In this document: piece after piece, positions 1,441 through 10,738 of the stretch
Layout: every line of letters begins with the position of its first letter
Position numbering within the stretch: position 1 is the stretch's first letter
Source: Saprospiraceae bacterium
GTDB lineage: Bacteria; Bacteroidota; Bacteroidia; Chitinophagales; Saprospiraceae
DNA length: 10,738 nt
NCBI GenBank assembly: GCA_947441325.1
Contig: CANETR010000023.1
Coordinates: 1 to 10,738 of the forward strand
Direction: 5' to 3'
Notes under the pieces: model-generated
Databases searched by the model: none
What the model was told of the DNA's origin: nothing
Seen by the model: the letters and a program-made list of their open reading frames with translations, nothing else
Position numbers and translations under genes: made by a program

Positions 1441-1591
1441 GATTTGGTTTTTGAATGTGAACTCCTTAAAGTACACCGAAAAAAAATATAAGTTTAGATT
1501 TCCCTGCGAAGTTATAATTTTTTTGAGACAGCTAAGGCGATTATTTAATTAAATTAACAAAAAGTTATTCTTATAAAGCAGTTTTAAATTA

Positions 1592-1620
1592 TTTGATTTA
1601 AACGGACTTATATATCTTTG
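1592..1620 (+). promoter_or_regulatory. Bacteroidota-type promoter for the secreted nuclease/phosphatase gene
   Basis: TTTG at 1592-1595 and TATCTTTG at 1613-1620 match the -33 (TTTG) and -7 (TAnnTTTG) consensus of the Bacteroidota primary sigma factor, with 17 bp between the boxes. A start site a few bases downstream would give a leader of roughly 40 bases before the ATG at 1665. I found no equally good box on the minus strand for the divergent receptor. Confidence 0.65.
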
Positions 1621-1664
1621 AGCATCGTTGGAACAAAACCTTAATATTATAAATAGCCTCAGAA

Positions 1665-2723
1665 ATGAATTCTAACAAATTTTCTGCTTTTTTTACGCTT
1701 GTAATAACCTTTGTGTCAGTCACTTTTTCGGCCTTTGCACAGAGTGATTACAGGGTGGCCTGTATTGGCTTTTATAACCTCGAAAATTTATTTGACACAC
1801 TTGACACTCCCGATAAAAACGATTCGGAATTTTTGCCTAATGGAAGCAATCAATACACCGGTTTTGTTTACAAGGATAAATTAAAAAATCTTTCAAGAGT
1901 CATCTCAGAACTGGGTACCGAAATGACACCCGATGGTGTAGCAATTTTGGGCGTTGCAGAAATTGAGAACCGTTCCGTTTTGGAAGATTTAGCTGCTCAA
2001 CCGCCGCTTAAAAACAGAAATTATAAAATTGTACACGAAGAGTCGCCCGATAGCAGGGGTGTAGATGTTGCAATGCTTTACAATCCAAAATATTTCAGAG
2101 AGTTATATCACAGAGTCATTCCAGTTTTGTTGGAAGGCGATAATGGTAGTAGCTATTATTCGCGAGATATTCTGCATGTAACCGGTATCTTAGGTGGTGT
2201 AGATACGCTTCATGTTTTTGTGAACCACTGGCCCTCTCGTAGAGGTGGTACTTCTTCCATTTCAAAAAGAAATTATGCTGCTTCTTTATGTAAAAAGGCC
2301 ATAGATTCGCTTACTGCATTGAATCCCAATGTAAAAATCTTTATAACTGGTGACTTAAACGATGACCCTATCAATGAAAGTATCAAAGATATTTTAAATG
2401 CAAAAGGTAAAACAAAGGAGGTAAAACCAGGCGGATTATTTAATCCAATGTGGATAAAATACAAAACGGGTGATGGTACACTGACTTACAATGACAGTTG
2501 GAATCTTTTTGATCAGACAATTATCTCCAGCGCATTTCTGGATAAAAACCAGAAAGGATACTTTTTTCAAAGCGCTGTTGTTTATAAAAAGCCCTATCTT
2601 CTAAATAAAGATGGCCGTTTTAAAGGTTCGCCTTTTAGGACTTATTCTTTTGGAAATTACATTGGCGGTTTTTCAGACCATTTACCGGTTTATAGCTTCT
2701 TTTTGCAGAAAATCATCAAATAA
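1665..2723 (+). CDS. Secreted endonuclease/exonuclease/phosphatase (EEP) family protein
   Basis: A 352-residue protein with a cleavable signal peptide (hydrophobic 8-23, SAFAQ at 22-26), so it acts in the periplasm or outside. The EEP catalytic landmarks appear in order: the Asn motif GFYNLENLFD (35-44), the metal-binding Glu in VAEIEN (97-102), RGVDVAMLY (131-139), the His motif VNHWPSRRGG (186-195), GDLNDDP (229-235) and the C-terminal SDHLPV (337-342). All acidic and His residues expected for a Mg-dependent DNase I-like phosphoesterase are present, so the enzyme is probably active. The family contains nucleases, sphingomyelinases and inositol phosphatases; motifs alone do not decide the substrate. 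It has its own promoter and diverges from a TonB-dependent receptor, which suggests breakdown and uptake of a phosphorylated polymer such as DNA (inference). Start chosen because it gives a complete signal peptide about 45 bases after the -7 box. Confidence 0.88.
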   Translation: MNSNKFSAFFTLVITFVSVTFSAFAQSDYRVACIGFYNLENLFDTLDTPDKNDSEFLPNGSNQYTGFVYKDKLKNLSRVISELGTEMTPDGVAILGVAEIENRSVLEDLAAQPPLKNRNYKIVHEESPDSRGVDVAMLYNPKYFRELYHRVIPVLLEGDNGSSYYSRDILHVTGILGGVDTLHVFVNHWPSRRGGTSSISKRNYAASLCKKAIDSLTALNPNVKIFITGDLNDDPINESIKDILNAKGKTKEVKPGGLFNPMWIKYKTGDGTLTYNDSWNLFDQTIISSAFLDKNQKGYFFQSAVVYKKPYLLNKDGRFKGSPFRTYSFGNYIGGFSDHLPVYSFFLQKIIK

Positions 2724-2727
2724 AATC

Positions 2728-2804
2728 AGAAATAGGAAGGTAGAATTCAGAATTCAGCGTTTAGAATTTTAATACTCTGAATTCATCCTTCTAATTTCTA
2801 CCTT
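2728..2804. repeat. Imperfect inverted repeat between convergent genes, possible bidirectional terminator
   Basis: Two 23-base arms (2728-2750 and 2777-2799) are complementary at 19 of 23 positions around a 26-base AT-rich middle. A second, shifted pairing is available: AAGGTAGAA (2737-2745) with TTCTACCTT (2796-2804). The left arm also contains a short direct repeat of AATTCAG (2744-2750 and 2751-2757). The element fills the spacer between convergent genes and covers the TAG stop of the minus-strand ligase (2798-2800), so it may end transcription from both sides. It lacks a clean run of T on either strand, so it is not a textbook intrinsic terminator; it could instead be a dispersed intergenic repeat. 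Confidence 0.55.
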
Positions 2805-5500
2805 AATAGCTTGTTTCTTTCTGCGCCAAACGCTAAAATGCTATCGATAAAATCTGCTGGACTGTAGCCATTTAAGGCGCATTGATGGAAAATACAGGTT
2901 GCTGGTGTCATGCCTGGAAGTGAATTTACTTCAATCACAATCGTTTCAGCTCTGCCATCGGCATAAACTCTTACAAAGGCATCGATTCGGGCATATCCGC
3001 TAACGCCAAGAACCTTGGCAGCCTTCTCCAAATCTTTGCGCACCTGAGTAGAGATATGTTCATGCGAAATGCCATTTACAGCAAAACGGGCTGGGGTTAT
3101 ATTTTGGCCTTCACCTGCAAGGAATTTTTCCTCCAGAGAAAGTACTTCTCCTCCGGCAAGTGTTTCAGAGGGTTCAAAAATTTCATATTCAACTTCACCC
3201 TTTTCATTAAATCTGGTAAGCAAGCCCCCTGTTATTTCAAGAAAATGAATTGCCTCTCCTTTCTCAATTAAAGTTTCGAGTAGGGCAGTTTTTTTAATTG
3301 GAAATTCTTCCTTGGTTTTTAATTGTAGGATTTCTGCAATTGCAGTCGGAATTTCCTCCTTTTCCCGGAAAATCGCATTCAAAAATGCCTCTAACTGAGT
3401 TCTGTTTTTAATTTTCTTCACAGCAGAACTGCAGCCGTCGTCAACAGGTTTGGCTATGAGGGGATACTTCAGTACTGCTTCTATTTCGTTAAGCAGGGAG
3501 TCACTGTTGTGTGAAAACTCTTCAGCATCAATCAACATCTGATCTGTAACGGTGAAGCCAGCTTTTTTTAACTGTTGCAGGGTTTCATATTTGTTAATGG
3601 TGATATTTGCAGAGGCAGCATTTGAACCATTGTAGGGAATCCTTAGTGCCTCGAGTTTTTGCTGAATGACACCATCTTCGCCGGGGCGACCATGCAGGGC
3701 TATAAAAACAGCATCGCATTTGCTTTTTAAGTCCTCGAAACTGAGTTTTATCGGTTCAAAAATTGCCTTATTGCCAGTAAATCTTTTAGTTATGGCTAAA
3801 CATTGATCCTGAATGCTCAATGTAACCTTATGTCGGCTGAAATGATAAATTTTATCGCGTATGTCGTCGGCATTATCTTTCAGCAAAAGATTGATTGGCA
3901 GTTGGTAAAGCTCCAAATTTTCAGCATTGCCACAGAGAAAAACTGGTATAGGCTCGTATTTGGCCGAACTCGATAGTTTTTCATAAATATTGCGTCCACT
4001 TTCAACCGAGATGTGTCGCTCGGAACTATACCCGCCTAAGATGACGGCAACTTTTGTTTTTACGGAACTATGAGAATTTCTGGCAACAATTTGCGCATCA
4101 AATTTTTTCAGTAAATTGTCAAAAAGATTCAGCTTCATGCTGTTTCTAATGCGTTCAGACAAGGATGTTCTGATGATGTATGTAAGGAAATTACTCGGAT
4201 TTAGTCCTATTTCTGCAGCCTGATGAAAGAAAAAGGAGGAGGGTAACATGCCCGATGTTGTGTTCGGGTCGTTCAGTATAATAGTTCCATCAGACTTTAT
4301 AAAACCGTCAATTCGGGCATAAACATTAAATTCCAAATATTGGAATAGTCGCTCACATTCCAGGCGAATTGCTTGTATTTGATCAGTTGGTAAATCGATT
4401 GGTGTGACTTTTCTTGACAGGCCTGCCAAATATTTGGAGCGGTAGTCAAAAACTTCCTTTCCTTTTAAAATTTCGGTAGGAGGCAGTGCTACGGCTTCGC
4501 CATTTTCATCCTGAATTACAACACAGGAAAACTCTCTGCCCTCGATAAAGCCCTCCAAAACAACACGTTGCTCGCTATGATGCCCTTCGAGTTGCAAGAA
4601 AGCACTTTTGTTTTTCTCAAAATAGCTGTCAAGAAATTCAAGAAGTTTCTCTGGGTGATAAATTATTGAAGTCTGCCCTCCTAAAATCGGTTCCGAAACA
4701 GTCATTGGGAAACCTATTCCATAACGGATGTCGGTCCAGTCGCGCATGAGTTGAATCTTTTCAATTTCGTTGTATTGTAGCCAATCTTCAGCAGGCAGGG
4801 TTTTAATAAAAAATGCAGAATCAATGGCATTTTCCAATTGATCAAGTCTGTTAACAATTGATACCCCAATTGAAGAGCCCTGATTTGCAGGTCTTACAAC
4901 CAGGGGCAGTTTAATTTTTTCAGCAGCGGAAGATAAAAGTGTATTTCTGTCGGGACAGCAAAGCCAATGTCTTCTTTGTAAAATCTGCATTTCGGGACTA
5001 TGGAATCCGCCTGCATTCATCACTTTTTTCTGGAAAGATTTGTCCATGCCAATGCTGCTTGCCCTAATACCAGAACCGCTGTATGGAATTTTAAGGCTTT
5101 CGAGCATTCCTTGTAGCTGCCCATCTTCGCCCCATTCGCCGTGTAAGGCCAAAAAGGCAAAGTCAATAAGGTTTGGCAAATCATTTAAGTTGATCTTTTT
5201 TCCTATTTCAGAAATTAGAATTTCAATATTTTTTTCGCTTAGATTTTCAATACTCTCCGCATAAATCTGAAATTGATGCTGGCTTTCTGGAAGAAAGTTA
5301 ACAGGGGGATAAAAGTCACGAATTGTTCCTTTGTAGAGGTAGGACCAATCCAATAGTATCAGATTTCCAATACTGTCTACAAAAATCGGAACTGCTTCGA
5401 ATAAGCTTTTGTCGAGGTTGTCATAAACTGTTCGCCCGCCTGCAAATGAAATTTCTCTTTCTCTCGAGCTGCCGCCAAAAAATATACCTGTACGAATCAT
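2798..5500 (-). CDS. Tandem D-alanine-D-alanine ligase-like protein (two ATP-grasp ligase units in one chain)
   Basis: A 900-residue protein, over twice the usual 300-370 residues of Ddl, which joins two D-Ala into the dipeptide used for peptidoglycan precursors in the cytoplasm. Unit 1 (about 1-463): GGSSREREIS (9-18), HGEWGEDG (120-127), GSGIRASSIGMDK (142-154), RPANQGSSIGV (203-213), FDYRSKY (351-357), YARIDGF (394-400), NDPNTTSGM (410-418). Unit 2 (about 482-900): GGYSSERHIS (489-498), HGRPGEDG (603-610), INK (635-637), KPVDDGCSSAV (684-694), EEKF (790-793), YARIDAF (836-842), EVNSLPGMT (857-865). Unit 1 keeps the Glu/Ser/Tyr triad but has Arg for the usual ATP-site Lys and Asp-Pro-Asn for Glu-x-Asn. 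Unit 2 shows the reverse. Start: a TTG at 5521 in frame is possible, but the ATG at 5500 begins directly before the first ligase strand, and a -7 box at 5530-5537 would put the transcript start beside the TTG. Either half may be catalytic; Ddl family membership is sure, exact product is not. Confidence 0.88.
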   Translation of the reverse strand: MIRTGIFFGGSSREREISFAGGRTVYDNLDKSLFEAVPIFVDSIGNLILLDWSYLYKGTIRDFYPPVNFLPESQHQFQIYAESIENLSEKNIEILISEIGKKINLNDLPNLIDFAFLALHGEWGEDGQLQGMLESLKIPYSGSGIRASSIGMDKSFQKKVMNAGGFHSPEMQILQRRHWLCCPDRNTLLSSAAEKIKLPLVVRPANQGSSIGVSIVNRLDQLENAIDSAFFIKTLPAEDWLQYNEIEKIQLMRDWTDIRYGIGFPMTVSEPILGGQTSIIYHPEKLLEFLDSYFEKNKSAFLQLEGHHSEQRVVLEGFIEGREFSCVVIQDENGEAVALPPTEILKGKEVFDYRSKYLAGLSRKVTPIDLPTDQIQAIRLECERLFQYLEFNVYARIDGFIKSDGTIILNDPNTTSGMLPSSFFFHQAAEIGLNPSNFLTYIIRTSLSERIRNSMKLNLFDNLLKKFDAQIVARNSHSSVKTKVAVILGGYSSERHISVESGRNIYEKLSSSAKYEPIPVFLCGNAENLELYQLPINLLLKDNADDIRDKIYHFSRHKVTLSIQDQCLAITKRFTGNKAIFEPIKLSFEDLKSKCDAVFIALHGRPGEDGVIQQKLEALRIPYNGSNAASANITINKYETLQQLKKAGFTVTDQMLIDAEEFSHNSDSLLNEIEAVLKYPLIAKPVDDGCSSAVKKIKNRTQLEAFLNAIFREKEEIPTAIAEILQLKTKEEFPIKKTALLETLIEKGEAIHFLEITGGLLTRFNEKGEVEYEIFEPSETLAGGEVLSLEEKFLAGEGQNITPARFAVNGISHEHISTQVRKDLEKAAKVLGVSGYARIDAFVRVYADGRAETIVIEVNSLPGMTPATCIFHQCALNGYSPADFIDSILAFGAERNKLLR

Positions 5501-5702: not shown

Positions 5703-6125
5703 ATGCTAATGCCATTTCACCTTGCAGTTCCTGTAAAGGATTTAATTGAGACAAGAGCTTTTTACAGAGATGTTTTGGGTTTGGAAGAGGGAAGAAGTTC
5801 TGATAGTTGGGTCGATTTTAATTTTTATGGACATCAGTTTGTAATTCACCTGAAGCCAGAATTTTTTGAACGATCAGATGTGTACAGTAATCCGGTAGAT
5901 GGCCACAATGTACCAGTACCTCATTTTGGAATTGTGCTCGAATGGGAAAACTGGGAGCTTTTGGCCGAGAGATTAAAATCTTTTGATGTAAAATTTGGTA
6001 TAGAACCTTATATCCGTTTCAAGGGTCAGGTAGGAGAGCAGGCAACCATGTTTTTTTATGACCCATCTGGGAATGCACTGGAGTTTAAAGCTTTCAAAGA
6101 CATGTCATTACTCTTTGCAAAGTAA
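5703..6125 (+). CDS. VOC-superfamily (glyoxalase/dioxygenase-fold) protein
   Basis: A 140-residue cytoplasmic protein with the two beta-alpha-beta-beta-beta modules of the vicinal-oxygen-chelate fold. The first runs from [20 protein letters not shown] (residues 5-24) through [21 protein letters not shown]. The second begins with [11 protein letters not shown] (71-81) and ends in [15 protein letters not shown] (117-131). Residues placed like the family's metal ligands are H6, H74 and E127, so a divalent metal site is likely. The family includes glyoxalase I, extradiol dioxygenases and antibiotic-binding proteins; I cannot say which reaction this one performs. A second ATG six bases downstream (5709) would give MPFHLAV and is an equally good start. 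It lies between two genes with their own promoter-like boxes and is probably transcribed alone. I found no convincing promoter in 5522-5702 for it. Confidence 0.85.
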
Positions 6126-6170
6126 ACAGTTAAAAATTAAGTTTATTTGATAAAAAATAAAAATTAGCAG

Positions 6171-6198
6171 TTTATTAAATTAAAAGCATATATCTTTG
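6171..6198 (+). promoter_or_regulatory. Probable promoter of the TPR/PD40/OmpA-type gene
   Basis: TATCTTTG at 6191-6198 matches the Bacteroidota -7 consensus exactly. The best -33 candidate is TTTA at 6171-6174, 16 bp upstream, one base from the consensus. The leader to the ATG at 6252 would be about 50 bases. Confidence 0.5.
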
Positions 6199-6251
6199 CA
6201 GCGCCAAAATTAATACAAAATTAATTTCACTAACAACTTAAAGATTTCCCC

Positions 6252-8468
6252 ATGCGTTTTGTATTTTTAATGTTTGCGCTCTTATTGATTTTTCATGTAG
6301 AAGTTATTGCCCAAAAAAGCCTGAAAGTGGCAGATAAAGCTTACAAGTCAGGCGATTATTACACGGCTGTTGAGAACTATGAATTAGCTTTTGAAGATAA
6401 AAAATTTGAAAAGCATAAATCAAAAAGCGAGGCATATTATAAGTATGCCGAATCCTGCCGTTTTAGCCATAATTTCACAAAAGCCGAAGTTTATTACAAA
6501 AAAGCAGCTGAAAGCGGAGATTACAAGAACAAATTATCTGCAATCGATTTCTGGTATGCCTATACCCTTAAACACAACGCCAAATACCAACCTGCGCTCG
6601 AAGAATTTCAAAAGTTTATTGAGCTTAACAAAAATGTAAAAGAGTACGAATCTCTGATTCGTATGGCTAAGCAGGATATAAAATCCTGTAGCCTTGCACT
6701 AGAAATATATCAGCATCCAATTGAGGGAGTTTCTGTTGAGAGTGTAGGCGAAAATGTAAATACTAAGTTTTCAGACTTTGCACCACATTTGGTCGATGGC
6801 GATTTGTACTATTCGTCTTTAAAATTTGAAGCTCAAACTCAAAGAAGAGCTGGGGTTGATGACAAAACCGAAAAACACCTTTATGGAAAGTTAATGGTGG
6901 CTAAAGAAGCCGGTAAGAAAAAGGGGGGATTATTGGCTAATTTAAACCTGAAGTATCAGAATGTAGGTAATTCCTGTTTGAGTCCTGATGGCAAAAGGTT
7001 GTACTATACTGTTTGTGAGAAGGATCTTGAATTTGAATTTGTATGCAAACTTTATGTCGCCGAAAGAGCAGCAAAAAACAAGTCTTGGGGCAGAGGCGTT
7101 GAATTGCCTTTTAACTCAAAAAAAGGCACAAACACACATCCAAATGTTTCTTTTGACAGTACGCTAAATAAAGAGGTTATTTACTTTGTATCCTCAAGAG
7201 ATGCAGGTCAAGGTCAAATGGATATTTATTTTGTCACTTATGAAGGTAAAGGCAAGTATTCTGAACCTGTTAATCTTGGAAATATTATTAACACAGAAGG
7301 CAAAGAAGCTACTCCATTTTTTCAACAAAGCTCGCAAACACTTTTTTTTAGTTCTACATGGCATCCTGGATTGGGAGGCTTTGATATTTTTAAATCAAAA
7401 AAAGAAAATGGTCAATGGTCAGAGCCAGTGAATGTTGGTGTACCATTAAACAGTGCTGCGAATGACCTATATTTTTATATCTCTCCTCAAGTTGACACCT
7501 TCGGTTATTTTTCGAGTAATCGTCCCGGTTCTAAAGTATTGACAGGAGAATCCTGCTGCAATGATATTTATGCATTGGTTTTGCCTAAGGAAATCGAACC
7601 TGGCAAATCGGTAGAGCTTTTGGTTTCTGTTGAACCAGAGCCAACACCTGAACCCGAAGTAAATCCAGTTCCGGAACCCAAACCAGAGCCGATTGTAGTA
7701 AAAACTGAACCAGAGCCTATTGTCAATCCCGAACCAGAGCCGATTGTAGCAAATGCCGAACCAAAGCCCACTGTCAATCCGGAACCAGAGCCTGAAATAA
7801 TTTTATTGTCTCCTGAGCCAATCGTCCAGCCTGAAATTAAAACTTTGCCCGAATCGAAGCCGCTGCCAGAGGTTGATGTGAACGTTTTGGAGAAAATGTT
7901 GCCGCTCACGCTTTATTTCCACAATGACGAGCCTGATTCAAATACTTATGCCATTACAACAAAGACAAATTATACACAGGCCTATAATAGCTTCATGGCA
8001 TATAAAGGCATGTACATGAATGAATTTGCCGCTCAATACAAAGATGCAGAAATGAAGATTTCGGCAACTGACAAGGTGAAAACATTTTTCGATAAAACAG
8101 TTACAGGAGAGTATCAGCGCATGAATGAGTTTATGGCACAATTGTCTAAGCTTATGGAGAAAGGTGAGGCAATAGAAATTTCTGTAAGAGGTTTTTGTAG
8201 CCCAAGATCCAGTAGTAATTACAATATCAACTTAGCTAAAAGACGCATAGCCTGTTTGAAAAATCAGATAAAAGATTTCGATAATGGAGCATTACAAAAA
8301 TATATCAAGAACGGTAAAATAAAATTTATTGAATTGCCAATAGGTGAGGCTCAGTCGCCACTTGGAGTAAGTGACAACTTGCTCGACCCAAGAAATTCAA
8401 TATTCAGCCCGGAGGCTTCTGCTCAGCGTAAAGTACATATCGAATCAATCAAAAAGGTTGTAAAATAA
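6252..8468 (+). CDS. Envelope protein with TPR, PD40 beta-propeller, Pro/Glu linker and divergent OmpA-type C-terminus
   Basis: A 738-residue exported protein. In order: signal peptide (about 1-21, ending VIAQ); TPR-like helices (about 23-145, e.g. [20 protein letters not shown] at 27-46 and [11 protein letters not shown] at 115-125); a PD40/WD40-like propeller (about 165-443) with blades such as [12 protein letters not shown] (242-253), [20 protein letters not shown] (309-328), [20 protein letters not shown] (363-382) and [11 protein letters not shown] (417-427); a Pro/Glu-rich linker (about 459-540); and a C-terminal domain (about 545-738). The last contains [24 protein letters not shown] (643-666), resembling the OmpA peptidoglycan-binding core, with a long helical insertion before it. 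The Asp normally found in the OmpA TDxxG motif is not present here, while the Arg of the following helix is. This architecture recalls PorE-type periplasmic proteins of Bacteroidota, some linked to type IX secretion or gliding; that role is unproven here. It is monocistronic, with a promoter and a strong terminator. Confidence 0.82.
7683..7784 (+). repeat. Two copies of a 51-base in-frame repeat coding a Pro/Glu linker
   Basis: Copies at 7683-7733 and 7734-7784 agree at about 43 of 51 positions. Each codes a 9- plus 8-residue pair (PEPIVVKTE + PEPIVNPE, then PEPIVANAE + PKPTVNPE), inside a longer Pro/Glu-rich stretch from about 7626 to 7871. The repeat lies in the linker between propeller and C-terminal domain, a rigid extended segment whose length could vary by repeat slippage. 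Confidence 0.8.
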
Positions 8469-8505
8469 AAATTAGAAAGCTGCAATTTGCAGCTTTCTAA
8501 TTTTT
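8467..8505 (+). terminator. Strong hairpin terminator of the OmpA-type gene
   Basis: Arms 8467-8485 and 8487-8505 are perfectly complementary over 19 bases around a single central base (in practice a 3-5 base loop). The core is GCTGCAA/TTGCAGC, flanked by an A-rich left side and a right side ending in TTTTT. It begins inside the TAA stop codon (8466-8468), so transcription stops immediately after translation ends. The symmetric A/T flanks mean it could also act on the other strand. Confidence 0.85.
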
Positions 8506-8539
8506 AAAGCGAAACTCTAAATAATATTGACTGCAATCA

Positions 8540-8570
8540 TTTCAATATAATTGAAAAAACGCTAAATTTG
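8540..8570 (+). promoter_or_regulatory. Probable promoter of the Fe(II) dioxygenase gene
   Basis: TAAATTTG at 8563-8570 fits TAnnTTTG exactly; TTTC at 8540-8543 lies 19 bp upstream at the -33 position, one base off TTTG. It sits after the previous gene's terminator and about 77 bases before the ATG at 8648. Confidence 0.5.
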
Positions 8571-8647
8571 TGACTTCTCAAAAAAACTGATTTAGTATCA
8601 GAATTTTGATTTAATAATATTAACTAACCTTCATTTTCTTTAACCCA

Positions 8648-9604
8648 ATGGCAACTACTAGCGGTATCCCTCAGGTTGATTTAAGTAAATTTATTGACGG
8701 TAATGCAATTATGCAGGCCGAGTTTGTACAAGAGCTGGGCAAGGCTTTTTCTGAAATTGGTTTTGTAAGTGTTACAAATCACGGAATTCCGCTCGAGCTT
8801 GTCAATAATTTTTTCAAACTCTCCGAAAAGTTTTTTGCAATGGATTTGGACAACAAATCCAAATACGAAGTAAAAGGTGGCGCCGGTCAGCGTGGTTATA
8901 CCTCATTCGGTCGCGAGCACGCTAAACACTCAAATGTAGGTGATCTCAAGGAGTTTTATCAGTTTGGACAGGAACTTCCAAGTGGACACGAATTGGAAAA
9001 GGAATACCCCGAGAACATTTATGTTGACGAATTACCAGATTATAACCAGGTAGCAAGGGCCCTTTATCAAGCTTTTGAAAAATCAGGAGGCCATCTATTG
9101 GAGGCAATTTCTCTATATTTAGGCTTGCCAAGAGATTATTTCGATAAACATATTGAAGGTGGTAACTCCATATTGAGGGCTATTCATTATCCGCCCATCA
9201 GCTCAGAACCTAAATCAGCCATCCGTGCCGATGAGCATGAAGATATTAACCTAATAACACTTTTGTTTGGCGCTTCTGCCGATGGGCTTCAAGTAAGACC
9301 ATTGGGTCACGACTGGATTGACGTGAAGGCCTTGGGAGACAGCATTGTAATCAATGTTGGCGATATGTTACAAAGACTTACCAATAATGTATTGCAATCG
9401 ACTACCCATAGAGTAGTAAATCCTCCAAGAGAACTTTGGGGTACAGCCAGAATTTCAATTCCATTTTTCCTGCATCCACGTAGTGATATGGATCTAAGCT
9501 GTTTGGAAGGTTGTATCAGTGCTGAAAATGCCTTGCAATATGAACCAATTACAGCAGGAGAATACCTGGATGAGCGCCTACGTGAGATTGGGTTGAAGAA
9601 ATAA
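8648..9604 (+). CDS. Isopenicillin N synthase family Fe(II)-dependent 2-oxoglutarate-type dioxygenase
   Basis: A 318-residue cytoplasmic enzyme of normal length for the family. The N-terminal DIOX_N part (about 7-125) contains IPQVDLSKF and EIGFVSVTNHGIP (36-48). The C-terminal double-stranded beta-helix holds the iron triad H197-x-D199 (in DEHEDINLITLLFG) and H254 (in STTHRVVNPP), plus R268-x-S270 (ARIS), which in 2-oxoglutarate users binds the co-substrate carboxylate. GLQVR (213-217) and VINVGDMLQRLTNN (234-247) are further family signatures. All catalytic residues are present, so it should be an active oxygenase. No peptide synthetase or beta-lactam gene lies next to it, so the isopenicillin N name describes the fold, not the product; the substrate is unknown. 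The ATG start follows a plausible promoter by about 77 bases, and a hairpin terminator lies 64 bases past the stop. Confidence 0.88.
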   Translation: MATTSGIPQVDLSKFIDGNAIMQAEFVQELGKAFSEIGFVSVTNHGIPLELVNNFFKLSEKFFAMDLDNKSKYEVKGGAGQRGYTSFGREHAKHSNVGDLKEFYQFGQELPSGHELEKEYPENIYVDELPDYNQVARALYQAFEKSGGHLLEAISLYLGLPRDYFDKHIEGGNSILRAIHYPPISSEPKSAIRADEHEDINLITLLFGASADGLQVRPLGHDWIDVKALGDSIVINVGDMLQRLTNNVLQSTTHRVVNPPRELWGTARISIPFFLHPRSDMDLSCLEGCISAENALQYEPITAGEYLDERLREIGLKK

Positions 9605-9633
9605 GCAGGCAACATTGACAAAAAATTCATAGA

Positions 9634-9666
9634 ATTGCAGAATAAATTCTATTTATACTATATTTG
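9634..9666 (+). promoter_or_regulatory. Promoter-like boxes directly before a terminator hairpin
   Basis: TATATTTG at 9659-9666 fits TAnnTTTG; ATTG at 9634-9637 lies 21 bp upstream as a weak -33 candidate. The predicted start, about 9672, is inside the hairpin that follows, so any transcript would be only about 40 bases. It may be a chance match in AT-rich DNA. Confidence 0.35.
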
Positions 9667-9668
9667 CG

Positions 9669-9710
9669 CAGTCTCGTTGCTTGTTTTTCGAGTAACGAGG
9701 CTGTTTTTTT
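9669..9710 (+). terminator. Intrinsic terminator after the Fe(II) dioxygenase gene
   Basis: CAGTCTCGTTGCTTG (9669-9683) pairs with CGAGTAACGAGGCTG (9689-9703) over 15 bp (three are G-U in RNA), with a TTTTT loop (9684-9688) and a run of seven T at 9704-9710. This is a textbook rho-independent terminator. It separates the dioxygenase from the OmpH genes. Confidence 0.88.
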
Positions 9711-9711
9711 G

Positions 9712-9730
9712 GTTAATATTCGTTAATATT
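9712..9730 (+). repeat. Short direct repeat upstream of the OmpH promoter
   Basis: GTTAATATT occurs at 9712-9720 and again at 9722-9730, a 10-base period, which places both copies on the same face of the helix. It lies between the terminator and the likely OmpH promoter. It could be a regulator binding site, or simply AT-rich sequence. Confidence 0.3.
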
Positions 9731-9755
9731 TTCTTTTTTTAATTCCGCAACAATT

Positions 9756-9786
9756 TTTGGCACGTTTGTGTAAGTTATAATTTTTG
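9756..9786 (+). promoter_or_regulatory. Probable promoter of the OmpH gene pair
   Basis: TTTG at 9756-9759 and AATTTTTG at 9779-9786 are spaced by 19 bp; the second box misses the TAnnTTTG consensus at its first base. The position, about 48 bases before the ATG at 9835 and after the terminator, suits the start of a two-gene transcript. Confidence 0.4.
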
Positions 9787-9834
9787 TCCGGAACCGACGT
9801 CTAAACAAAGAATTTACTAAGGACCAAAAAATTT

Positions 9835-10350
9835 ATGATTATGAGAAAATTAGCACTTTTTATTGCCTTTGCCTTTTTGGGTTCATTTACTGTAAATGCT
9901 CAAAGAATGGCCTATGTGGACATGGAAAAGATTATGGAATCTGTTCCAGATTATGCCAAAGCTCAAAAAGAGCTTGAAGAAATCGCTGAACGTTGGAGAC
10001 AGGAGATTTCAAAAGAATACGATAAAATTGATCAGATGTACCGCGACTATCAGGCACGAGAAGTACTGATGAGTGATGATACCCGTAAGCAGAAACAAGA
10101 CGAAATTGTGGCCAAAGAAAAAGAAGTAAGAGAACTTCAGAAAAAACGATTTGGTCCCGAGGGAGAACTTTTTACCAAAAGACAAAGTCTTGTCAAACCG
10201 ATACAGGAGAAGGTTTATACGGCAATTGAAAAATTTGCCAATGACCGTAACTACGATGTGATTTTTTCTGCACCTGATGGCAGTACCATTATCTATGCTA
10301 AAGCAGATAAGGATGTAACTGCGGATGTTATCAAGTCGCTTCAAAAATAA
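9835..10350 (+). CDS. ompH: OmpH/Skp-family periplasmic chaperone
   Basis: A 171-residue exported protein. The signal peptide (KLALFIAFAFLGSF, cleavage near VNAQ) is followed by RMAYVDMEKIMESVPDYAKAQ, the conserved first strand and helix of the OmpH family. A long charged coiled-coil arm follows (about 45-130, rich in Glu, Lys, Gln and Arg, with AKEKEVRELQKKRFG), then a returning C-terminal body (AIEKFANDRNYDVIFSAPDGSTIIYA). Skp-type proteins form trimers that hold unfolded outer-membrane proteins in the periplasm before delivery to the BAM complex. AAGGA at 9819-9823 lies 11 bases before the ATG at 9835; a second ATG at 9841 is too far from it for normal spacing, though it also gives a full signal peptide. 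A second OmpH-like gene starts 39 bases after the stop with no terminator between them, so the pair is probably co-transcribed. Confidence 0.9.
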   Translation: MIMRKLALFIAFAFLGSFTVNAQRMAYVDMEKIMESVPDYAKAQKELEEIAERWRQEISKEYDKIDQMYRDYQAREVLMSDDTRKQKQDEIVAKEKEVRELQKKRFGPEGELFTKRQSLVKPIQEKVYTAIEKFANDRNYDVIFSAPDGSTIIYAKADKDVTADVIKSLQK

Positions 10351-10389
10351 ATTACCATTTTCAACAACATAATCATACGCTCTTCAGAA

Positions 10390-10738
10390 ATGAAAAACTT
10401 CTTTTTCCTTCTTTTTGCAGCTTTTGTATTGCTTTCCTGTTCAAAAGGAGCAACTGACAAGAAAAATGATAAACCTGTACCCACAGGGAACCTTAAAATT
10501 GCGCATGTAGATCCGGAACAGGTTATTCCAAATATGCCAGAATATAAAGCGGCAAAGGAAGAATTGGAAAAGCTTAAAACCCAACTGCAGGCACAAATGG
10601 AAACTGAGCAGCAAAGAGTACAACAGTATTATGCCACTGTTATGCAAAAAGCACAACAGGGTATATTGGCCCCTGCTCAGCAAAAACTTGAAGAAGACAA
10701 ACTCGTGAAAATGCAGGAAGAATTGCAGCGCAAGGCTA
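10390..10738 (+). CDS. OmpH/Skp-like lipoprotein, cut by the right edge
   Basis: An open frame runs from the ATG at 10390 to the end, giving 116 codons. It begins with a lipoprotein signal (MKNFFFLLFAAFVLLSC, lipobox LLSC with Cys17), so the mature protein should be lipid-anchored rather than free. After a short polar spacer (KGATDKKNDKPVPTGN) comes KIAHVDPEQVIPNMPEYKAA, the OmpH entry motif, then a Gln/Glu/Lys-rich coiled coil that is still open at the edge. It looks like a paralogue of the gene before it, probably in the same operon. A membrane-tethered OmpH beside a soluble one suggests separate tasks or mixed trimers (inference). Closing part of the protein is not visible. Confidence 0.82.
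   Translation, partial: MKNFFFLLFAAFVLLSCSKGATDKKNDKPVPTGNLKIAHVDPEQVIPNMPEYKAAKEELEKLKTQLQAQMETEQQRVQQYYATVMQKAQQGILAPAQQKLEEDKLVKMQEELQRKA

Follow-up and report, generated by a model that had tools for sequence, protein, structure and literature searches.

A tandem D-alanine–D-alanine ligase of Saprospiraceae with two asymmetric units and a frequent link to PASTA domains

We analysed a stretch of 10,738 nucleotides from a Saprospiraceae bacterium (positions 1 to 10,738 of contig CANETR010000023.1, assembly GCA_947441325.1; hereafter the window), which carries a gene for a D-alanine–D-alanine ligase (Ddl) with two Ddl units joined in a single chain. From comparison with homologues, we think it reasonably likely that this tandem acts as the organism's housekeeping D-Ala:D-Ala ligase, with unit 1 as the chief maker of the dipeptide and unit 2 as a modified helper, and that it has a second role linked to PASTA domains. 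Ddl is described in PMC5717164 as making a cell-wall dipeptide and as a target of D-cycloserine. A clade in which a fused asymmetric pair is the sole Ddl, often tied to PASTA, would offer a natural test of possible Ddl regulation. The tandem is known in databases as D-alanine--D-alanine ligase, and its PASTA link is noted here as new; in the open-access literature, with subscription papers mostly outside that search, we found no paper on the tandem Ddl fusion.

Reciprocal substitutions in the two units

A sequence-only reading of the window had proposed two Ddl units fused in one chain, and this is borne out by a 900-residue protein with two Ddl folds, in which the Pfam Ddl N- and C-domains score above cut-off (159.8 and 195.4 bits, the two units counted together). 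Rows of the structural comparison mostly span residues 1-458, and absences in them carry no meaning. The whole protein also exceeds the cut-offs of three NCBIfam Ddl models (best 379.7 against 243 bits), a total to which both units contribute and which neither unit reaches alone. Identity between the units is only ~26%, and each has insertions relative to DdlA and DdlB.

Catalytic residues were numbered by their E. coli DdlB equivalents and counted first in 150 tandem proteins and in 19 one-unit Ddls from related genomes, and then in a larger set of 463 rows, which combines 357 complete or partial database proteins with 105 open reading frames (ORFs) from tandem loci and the window protein itself, and of which only readable rows count. 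The protein sample leans to close relatives, as it holds the best 120 of 4248, of 1355 and of 1471 matches. The reciprocal split of conserved residues described in the sequence-only reading holds on alignment and is near-fixed in the 463 rows (Table 1): unit 1 keeps the complete Glu-Ser-Tyr triad, and two of its ATP and metal residues differ (Lys144 is Arg and Glu270 is Asp); unit 2 has the ATP and metal set unchanged, Lys and Glu-Val-Asn included, and its triad is altered by Ser to Cys and Tyr to Phe. Only the Lys144 to Arg change of unit 1 did not stand as a member of this fixed set, because both Lys and Arg occur there and either half of E. coli CarB carries Arg in its Lys144-type motif (a likeness by motif), so that the change need not harm ATP use; by its distribution in the alignment it reads as a lineage trait only. 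The other marked residues are not free to vary, and the asymmetry is therefore real and probably selected.

Further near-fixed states of the 463-row set are Ser at Pro275 (430/432) and Phe at Leu282 (440/441) in unit 1, and in unit 2 Ala at Gly153 (382/388), with R255 kept in 353/356 and D257 in 355/356. The three exceptions to Asp270 in unit 1 (L030, L031 and L032) all come from genomes that also carry a separate Ddl. The Ser281 position, which is Thr in unit 2, has a role towards the acceptor carboxylate. In the one-unit Ddls, Lys144, Ser150 and Tyr216 are present in 19/19 and Glu270 in 18/19, the remaining one having a gap. We rejected a loss of the ribose Glu187 from unit 2: a spacing count from Glu180 gave a variable residue, while MAFFT and profile alignment, which we prefer, give the near-invariant E755.

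One alternative is that an ordinary Ddl was duplicated by chance and underwent lineage-specific neutral drift, with nothing special in the asymmetry. The homologues are indeed common and annotated plainly as D-alanine--D-alanine ligase, and position 203 drifts between Arg and Lys, but the other marked residues are near-fixed over hundreds of sequences despite the low identity between units, and this explanation, already disfavoured, seems to us highly improbable.

Table 1. Positions in the window of the tandem ligase gene, its units and its marked residues, with counts over readable rows of the 463-row set
Feature	Position	Strand	Basis or count
Tandem D-alanine--D-alanine ligase gene, 900 amino acids + stop	2798..5500	-	ORF and homologue comparison
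Unit 1, residues 1-459, Ddl fold, complete Glu-Ser-Tyr triad	4124..5500	-	
Linker, residues 460-480, helix 461-476 predicted	4061..4123	-	
Unit 2, residues 481-900, Ddl fold, altered substrate pocket	2801..4060	-	
Unit 1 E14 = DdlB Glu15, triad	5459..5461	-	E 334/335
Unit 1 R203 = Lys144, ATP site	4892..4894	-	Arg 217, Lys 152 of 369
Unit 1 S209 = Ser150, triad	4874..4876	-	S 367/371
Unit 1 Y357 = Tyr216, triad	4430..4432	-	Y 413/414
Unit 1 D411-P412-N413 = Glu270-x-Asn272, metal	4262..4270	-	D 429/432
Unit 2 E494 = Glu15	4019..4021	-	E 436/436
Unit 2 K684 = Lys144	3449..3451	-	K 386/387
Unit 2 C690 = Ser150, triad Ser to Cys	3431..3433	-	C 384/386
Unit 2 E755, profile-aligned to ribose Glu187	3236..3238	-	E 367/371
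Unit 2 F793 = Tyr216, triad Tyr to Phe	3122..3124	-	F 358/364
Unit 2 E857-V-N859 = Glu270-x-Asn272, metal	2924..2932	-	E 353/354, N 353/353
Unit 2 T868 = Ser281	2897..2899	-	T 351/357

The tandem as the probable sole Ddl of most tandem genomes checked

Among 60 genomes (the window's own and 59 relatives), 32 have the tandem only, 23 a single Ddl only, three have both and two neither; in three of the 32 tandem-only genomes the tandem is broken over contigs. We also checked 50 tandem genomes of 80 named loci, a set that overlaps with the 60 genomes (several coordinates are shared) and is not to be summed with them. Exactly two Ddl N-domain matches were found in 48 of these and three in the other two, and the two-match genomes include Saprospira grandis Lewin, whose record is titled complete, and isolates of Rufibacter, Pontibacter and Rhodocytophaga. 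With only two N-domains in 48 of 50, the tandem is very probably the sole Ddl there, and thus of most tandem genomes checked.

A second, single-unit ddl, raised as a question in the sequence-only reading, was not found in the window's own genome, but this genome is 63% complete and such an absence proves little. Other Ddl_C matches do exist in the own genome (of these, frame C1 was inspected), but Ddl_N matches lie only in the window protein, and we rejected a hidden second Ddl among them. As a side observation, no Ddl N-domain match was found in G014, G050 and 14 further family genomes, many of which are fragmented or incomplete, yet G188 is listed as 99% complete.

The fusion was found in Saprospiraceae and in some Cytophagales, and its distribution within the order is patchy. 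An even sample of 109 genomes of the phylum, the window's own included, has the tandem in two, which makes it a feature of some clades. A far tandem type, represented by L172 (genome G368, 28% identity to the window protein) and the fragment L180 (G135, 34%), shows the usual pattern of the tandem (Asp270 for unit 1; Cys150, Phe216 and Thr281 for unit 2) despite this distance. Its unit 2 retains Gly153, and it possibly stands for a second tandem lineage or for contamination. A Bacteroidota-type tandem Ddl also sits on a contig titled Candidatus Saccharibacteria (L140), probably through a wrong label or bin.

Link to PASTA domains

Several tandem frames are 1140-1341 residues long, and their extra C-terminal part consists of a membrane segment and a PASTA-bearing tail; PASTA scores above cut-off in all eight long members tested. 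In a set of 35 tandem genomes, the tandem is fused to a membrane segment and PASTA in nine (G006, G011, G013, G019, G023, G025, G028, G035 and G036), and in 17 a PASTA frame lies directly downstream on the same strand, which brings the PASTA link to 26 of the 35. The remaining nine, the window's own genome included, have neither the fusion nor a neighbouring PASTA among the matches listed. Judged by eye, one-unit ddl genes lie beside PASTA in a few genomes too, with PASTA downstream in G045, G049 and G055 and divergent in G044 and G053.

Decay of the tandem beside a separate Ddl

Of the 105 distinct tandem locus ORFs, 102 have all of the 20 listed positions intact, apart from a gap in one of them, and the three that do not come from G006, G023 and G025, which are the three of the 60 genomes that also hold a one-unit Ddl. 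This pattern was followed in a scan of 298 family genomes, of which 24 with odd match counts or scores were looked at further and the other two-match genomes were taken as tandem-only; all 13 three-match family genomes were followed up or already known. Altogether, a tandem and a one-unit Ddl occur together in 17 genomes, and in 16 of these, spanning seven genera, catalytic residues of the tandem are lost, Arg255, Asp257 or Asn272 among them. Nine of the 16 decayed tandems have 34-50% identity to the window protein, and residue placement in them is firm; three of the decayed copies are short in the available sequence (G133, G175 and G228). Four three-match genomes (G135, G242, G257 and G309) hold extra tandem pieces and no one-unit Ddl.

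The state of the two units differs between the decayed copies. G025 and G276 have a dead unit 1 beside a nearly intact unit 2, in which position 150 is Ser again and position 281 is Ala. For G211 (L159), it is unit 2 that is dead; unit 1 there lacks Lys215 as its sole listed catalytic loss and has Glu at position 270. In the remaining cases both units look dead. The tandem of G036, of the same genus as G211, is intact, and that genome has no match to a separate Ddl. Of the 16 decayed copies, 14 retain the membrane segment together with a tail of 224-259 residues, the other two being incomplete sequences. On a tree of the tails, built by a quick method, the decayed state takes four changes by parsimony, at least two of them forced by well-supported branches, and G211 nests with an intact relative. 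In G133, the frame at 1471-3879 (L169, 803 residues) has a degenerate first Ddl unit followed by a membrane segment and PASTA, and the second unit is apparently gone. The series from intact, through one unit dead and both dead, to one unit apparently lost would trace a ligase becoming a retained pseudoenzyme, and is testable per unit.

We estimated the ratio of nonsynonymous to synonymous substitution rates (dN/dS) with our own Nei-Gojobori script. For the dead units of one genus (G202, G275, G322 and G355; four pairs), dN/dS is 0.04-0.06 in unit 1 and 0.02-0.04 in unit 2, and for G025/G276 it is ~0.13-0.14. The intact pair G008/G200, taken as a yardstick, yields a value for unit 2 only, 0.067, and that one is saturated. 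Judged by these rates, the dead tandem units of that genus are under strong purifying selection, which supports the idea that the double unit, taken as one, has a structural or regulatory function. Catalytic loss in 16 of 17 genomes with a separate Ddl, yet low dN/dS, argues that the tandem probably has a Ddl job and a second, non-catalytic one.

Proposed roles of the two units

In the scheme that we propose, an ancient event, either a duplication or the joining of two Ddl units, would have given one chain that replaced the ordinary Ddl. Both units would bind ATP and magnesium. Unit 1, with its full Glu-Ser-Tyr triad, is predicted to be the most likely maker of D-Ala-D-Ala; unit 2 would serve the same job, either as a second, relaxed site or as an ATP- and D-Ala-binding regulatory partner, and would not supply an essential product of its own. 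The double unit of many members is tied to a membrane PASTA protein, by an adjacent gene or by fusion, and a second non-catalytic role there could outlive catalysis. The sequences themselves show the residue pattern, the lack of a further Ddl in most tandem genomes checked, the PASTA link and the decay combined with selection; the activities, the division of labour and the second role we infer, D-Ala-D-Ala synthesis being deduced from the standing of the tandem as the only Ddl found. The units have to be weighed against each other, as the triad is complete in unit 1 but a metal ligand there is Asp, and unit 2 has the full ATP and metal set but a changed substrate pocket; we favour unit 1 as the putative dipeptide maker and unit 2 as its modified helper.

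Two ligases of different specificity, with unit 1 making D-Ala-D-Ala and unit 2 joining D-Ala to another acceptor, e.g. D-lactate or D-serine, would account for the near-fixed changes of unit 2 at residues of the substrate pocket, with the ATP and metal residues kept, and for the nearly intact unit 2 beside a separate Ddl in G025 and G276. Solved structures of DdlB Y216F (1iow) and of the Leuconostoc mesenteroides D-Ala:D-Lac ligase (1ehi, LmDdl2) point the same way, as unit 2 shares with the latter a Phe at the Tyr216 position; by this analogy, use of D-lactate by unit 2 is possible. Unlike that enzyme, the tandem has two units and the triad Ser to Cys change, and it lies far under the cut-off of the NCBIfam D-Ala-D-Lac equivalog (201.1 bits for the whole protein and 92.2 for unit 2 alone, against 550). 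The D-Ala-D-Ser equivalog is likewise below cut-off (223.3 and 99.8 against 520 bits), but since unit 2 is also under the cut-offs of the D-Ala-D-Ala models, these low scores say little alone. In the excerpts of PMC5717164, PMC6268094 and PMC3410885, Y216F appears in reference-list entries only. Further, the catalytic residues of unit 2 are lost, or the unit is missing, in six of the seven genera with a separate Ddl and a decayed tandem, which would be unexpected if its product were separately needed and weakens the idea of two specificities that are both required. Both units are usually free to decay beside another Ddl, which makes an essential product peculiar to unit 2 less likely, although G025 and G276 are exceptions in this respect. 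We regard this alternative as quite unlikely.

If instead every member paired one catalytic unit with a pseudo-ligase of purely structural function, the altered metal ligand of unit 1 and the altered triad of unit 2 would be expected, as would the persistence of dead units under selection in some genera. However, both units keep the ATP and metal set (with Asp for Glu in unit 1) at ~99% in ordinary members, which would be needless for a purely structural unit, and decay in relatives looks different, striking the arginine, aspartate and asparagine named above. A purely structural half is thereby weakened for ordinary members, and we think it unlikely. The sequence-only reading, which offered two specificities or one catalytic and one structural or regulatory half, is partly borne out: both options come out weaker as worded, and a structural or regulatory role gains support for the double unit as a whole.

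Several observations weigh against our proposal of a housekeeping ligase with unit 1 as chief maker and a second, PASTA-linked role. Asp for the metal Glu occurs in 0/19 one-unit Ddls, which could mean a weak unit 1, and either unit alone falls under the cut-off of the best NCBIfam Ddl model (229.4 bits for unit 1 and 157.3 for unit 2, against 243). The window's own genome has no PASTA beside the gene among the matches listed. G368 (66% complete) has an intact tandem, of the far type L172, alongside a single Ddl, and the decay elsewhere singles out neither unit, as seen from G025/G276, G211 and the others. Seven of the 16 decayed tandems have 23-32% identity to the window protein, so residue placement in them is unsure. 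As to selection, dS is >1 in three of the four pairs of dead units (0.2-0.3 in G275/G322), and two pairs with G023 gave no dN/dS value because synonymous sites are saturated. Finally, all decayed copies whose tail can be read are fused to PASTA, and what is retained may be mainly PASTA; dN/dS is, on the other hand, low over the Ddl units too.

A bolder form of the proposal, which we put forward tentatively and would not expect to hold on balance, is a bifunctional cell-wall hub that would combine D-Ala-D-Ala synthesis with PASTA-mediated sensing or scaffolding of peptidoglycan synthesis, with a dead double pseudo-ligase being selected in lineages that have a separate Ddl.

Comparison with known systems

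The tandem shares with DdlA and DdlB the Pfam domains, the fold, the ATP and metal residues and, in unit 1, the triad; it differs from them in its two units per chain, near-fixed reciprocal substitutions, insertions and, in many members, PASTA link. One-unit Ddls of relatives have frames of ~320-420 amino acids. Like the tandem, the MurC-Ddl fusion (NF011171), known from Chlamydia, has Ddl joined to another module in one chain, but the tandem protein has no Mur ligase family among its Pfam matches and is below the cut-off of that NCBIfam model (165.8 against 1015 bits). Several tandem Ddls (such as P0005, P0012 and P0014) are named UDP-N-acetylmuramate--alanine ligase by JGI, likely a misannotation. 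CarB also has two ATP-grasp units per chain, but its chemistry is different, and the CPSase ATP-binding family is below cut-off for the tandem (17 against 19.8 bits). A membrane segment and a PASTA end are found in some tandem Ddls as in PASTA membrane proteins (of PBP2x/PknB type), whereas the eight long tandem members tested have no kinase or penicillin-binding Pfam match.

Packing of the halves and origin

In the excerpts of PMC6899670, Gly81 of BpDdl is reported as a dimer residue. The corresponding Gly74 (the number being shifted here) is Gly in 139/150 unit-1 rows and 18/19 one-unit rows, and in unit 2 Gly is outside the four commonest states at this position. This loss of the dimer-interface glycine from unit 2 speaks against the two halves packing as a Ddl dimer.

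A tree of 74 rows places all 19 rows of unit 1 in a clade of their own and does the same for the 19 of unit 2; both clades have 100/100 support and lie apart from the one-unit Ddls. We rejected a sister relationship of the two clades, as their joining rests on long branches, and a single duplication does not follow from this tree. The additional one-unit Ddls found in G006, G023 and G025 are split between two distinct clades of the tree, implying at least two acquisitions or retentions.

Neighbouring genes in the window

No cell-wall operon was seen by eye around the window copy among the neighbours at 1-2723 and 5703-10738. By the same inspection, these neighbours are a TonB-type outer-membrane receptor, an endonuclease/exonuclease/phosphatase-like protein, a VOC-like protein, an OmpA-type protein, a 2OG-Fe oxygenase-like protein and two OmpH/Skp-like genes.

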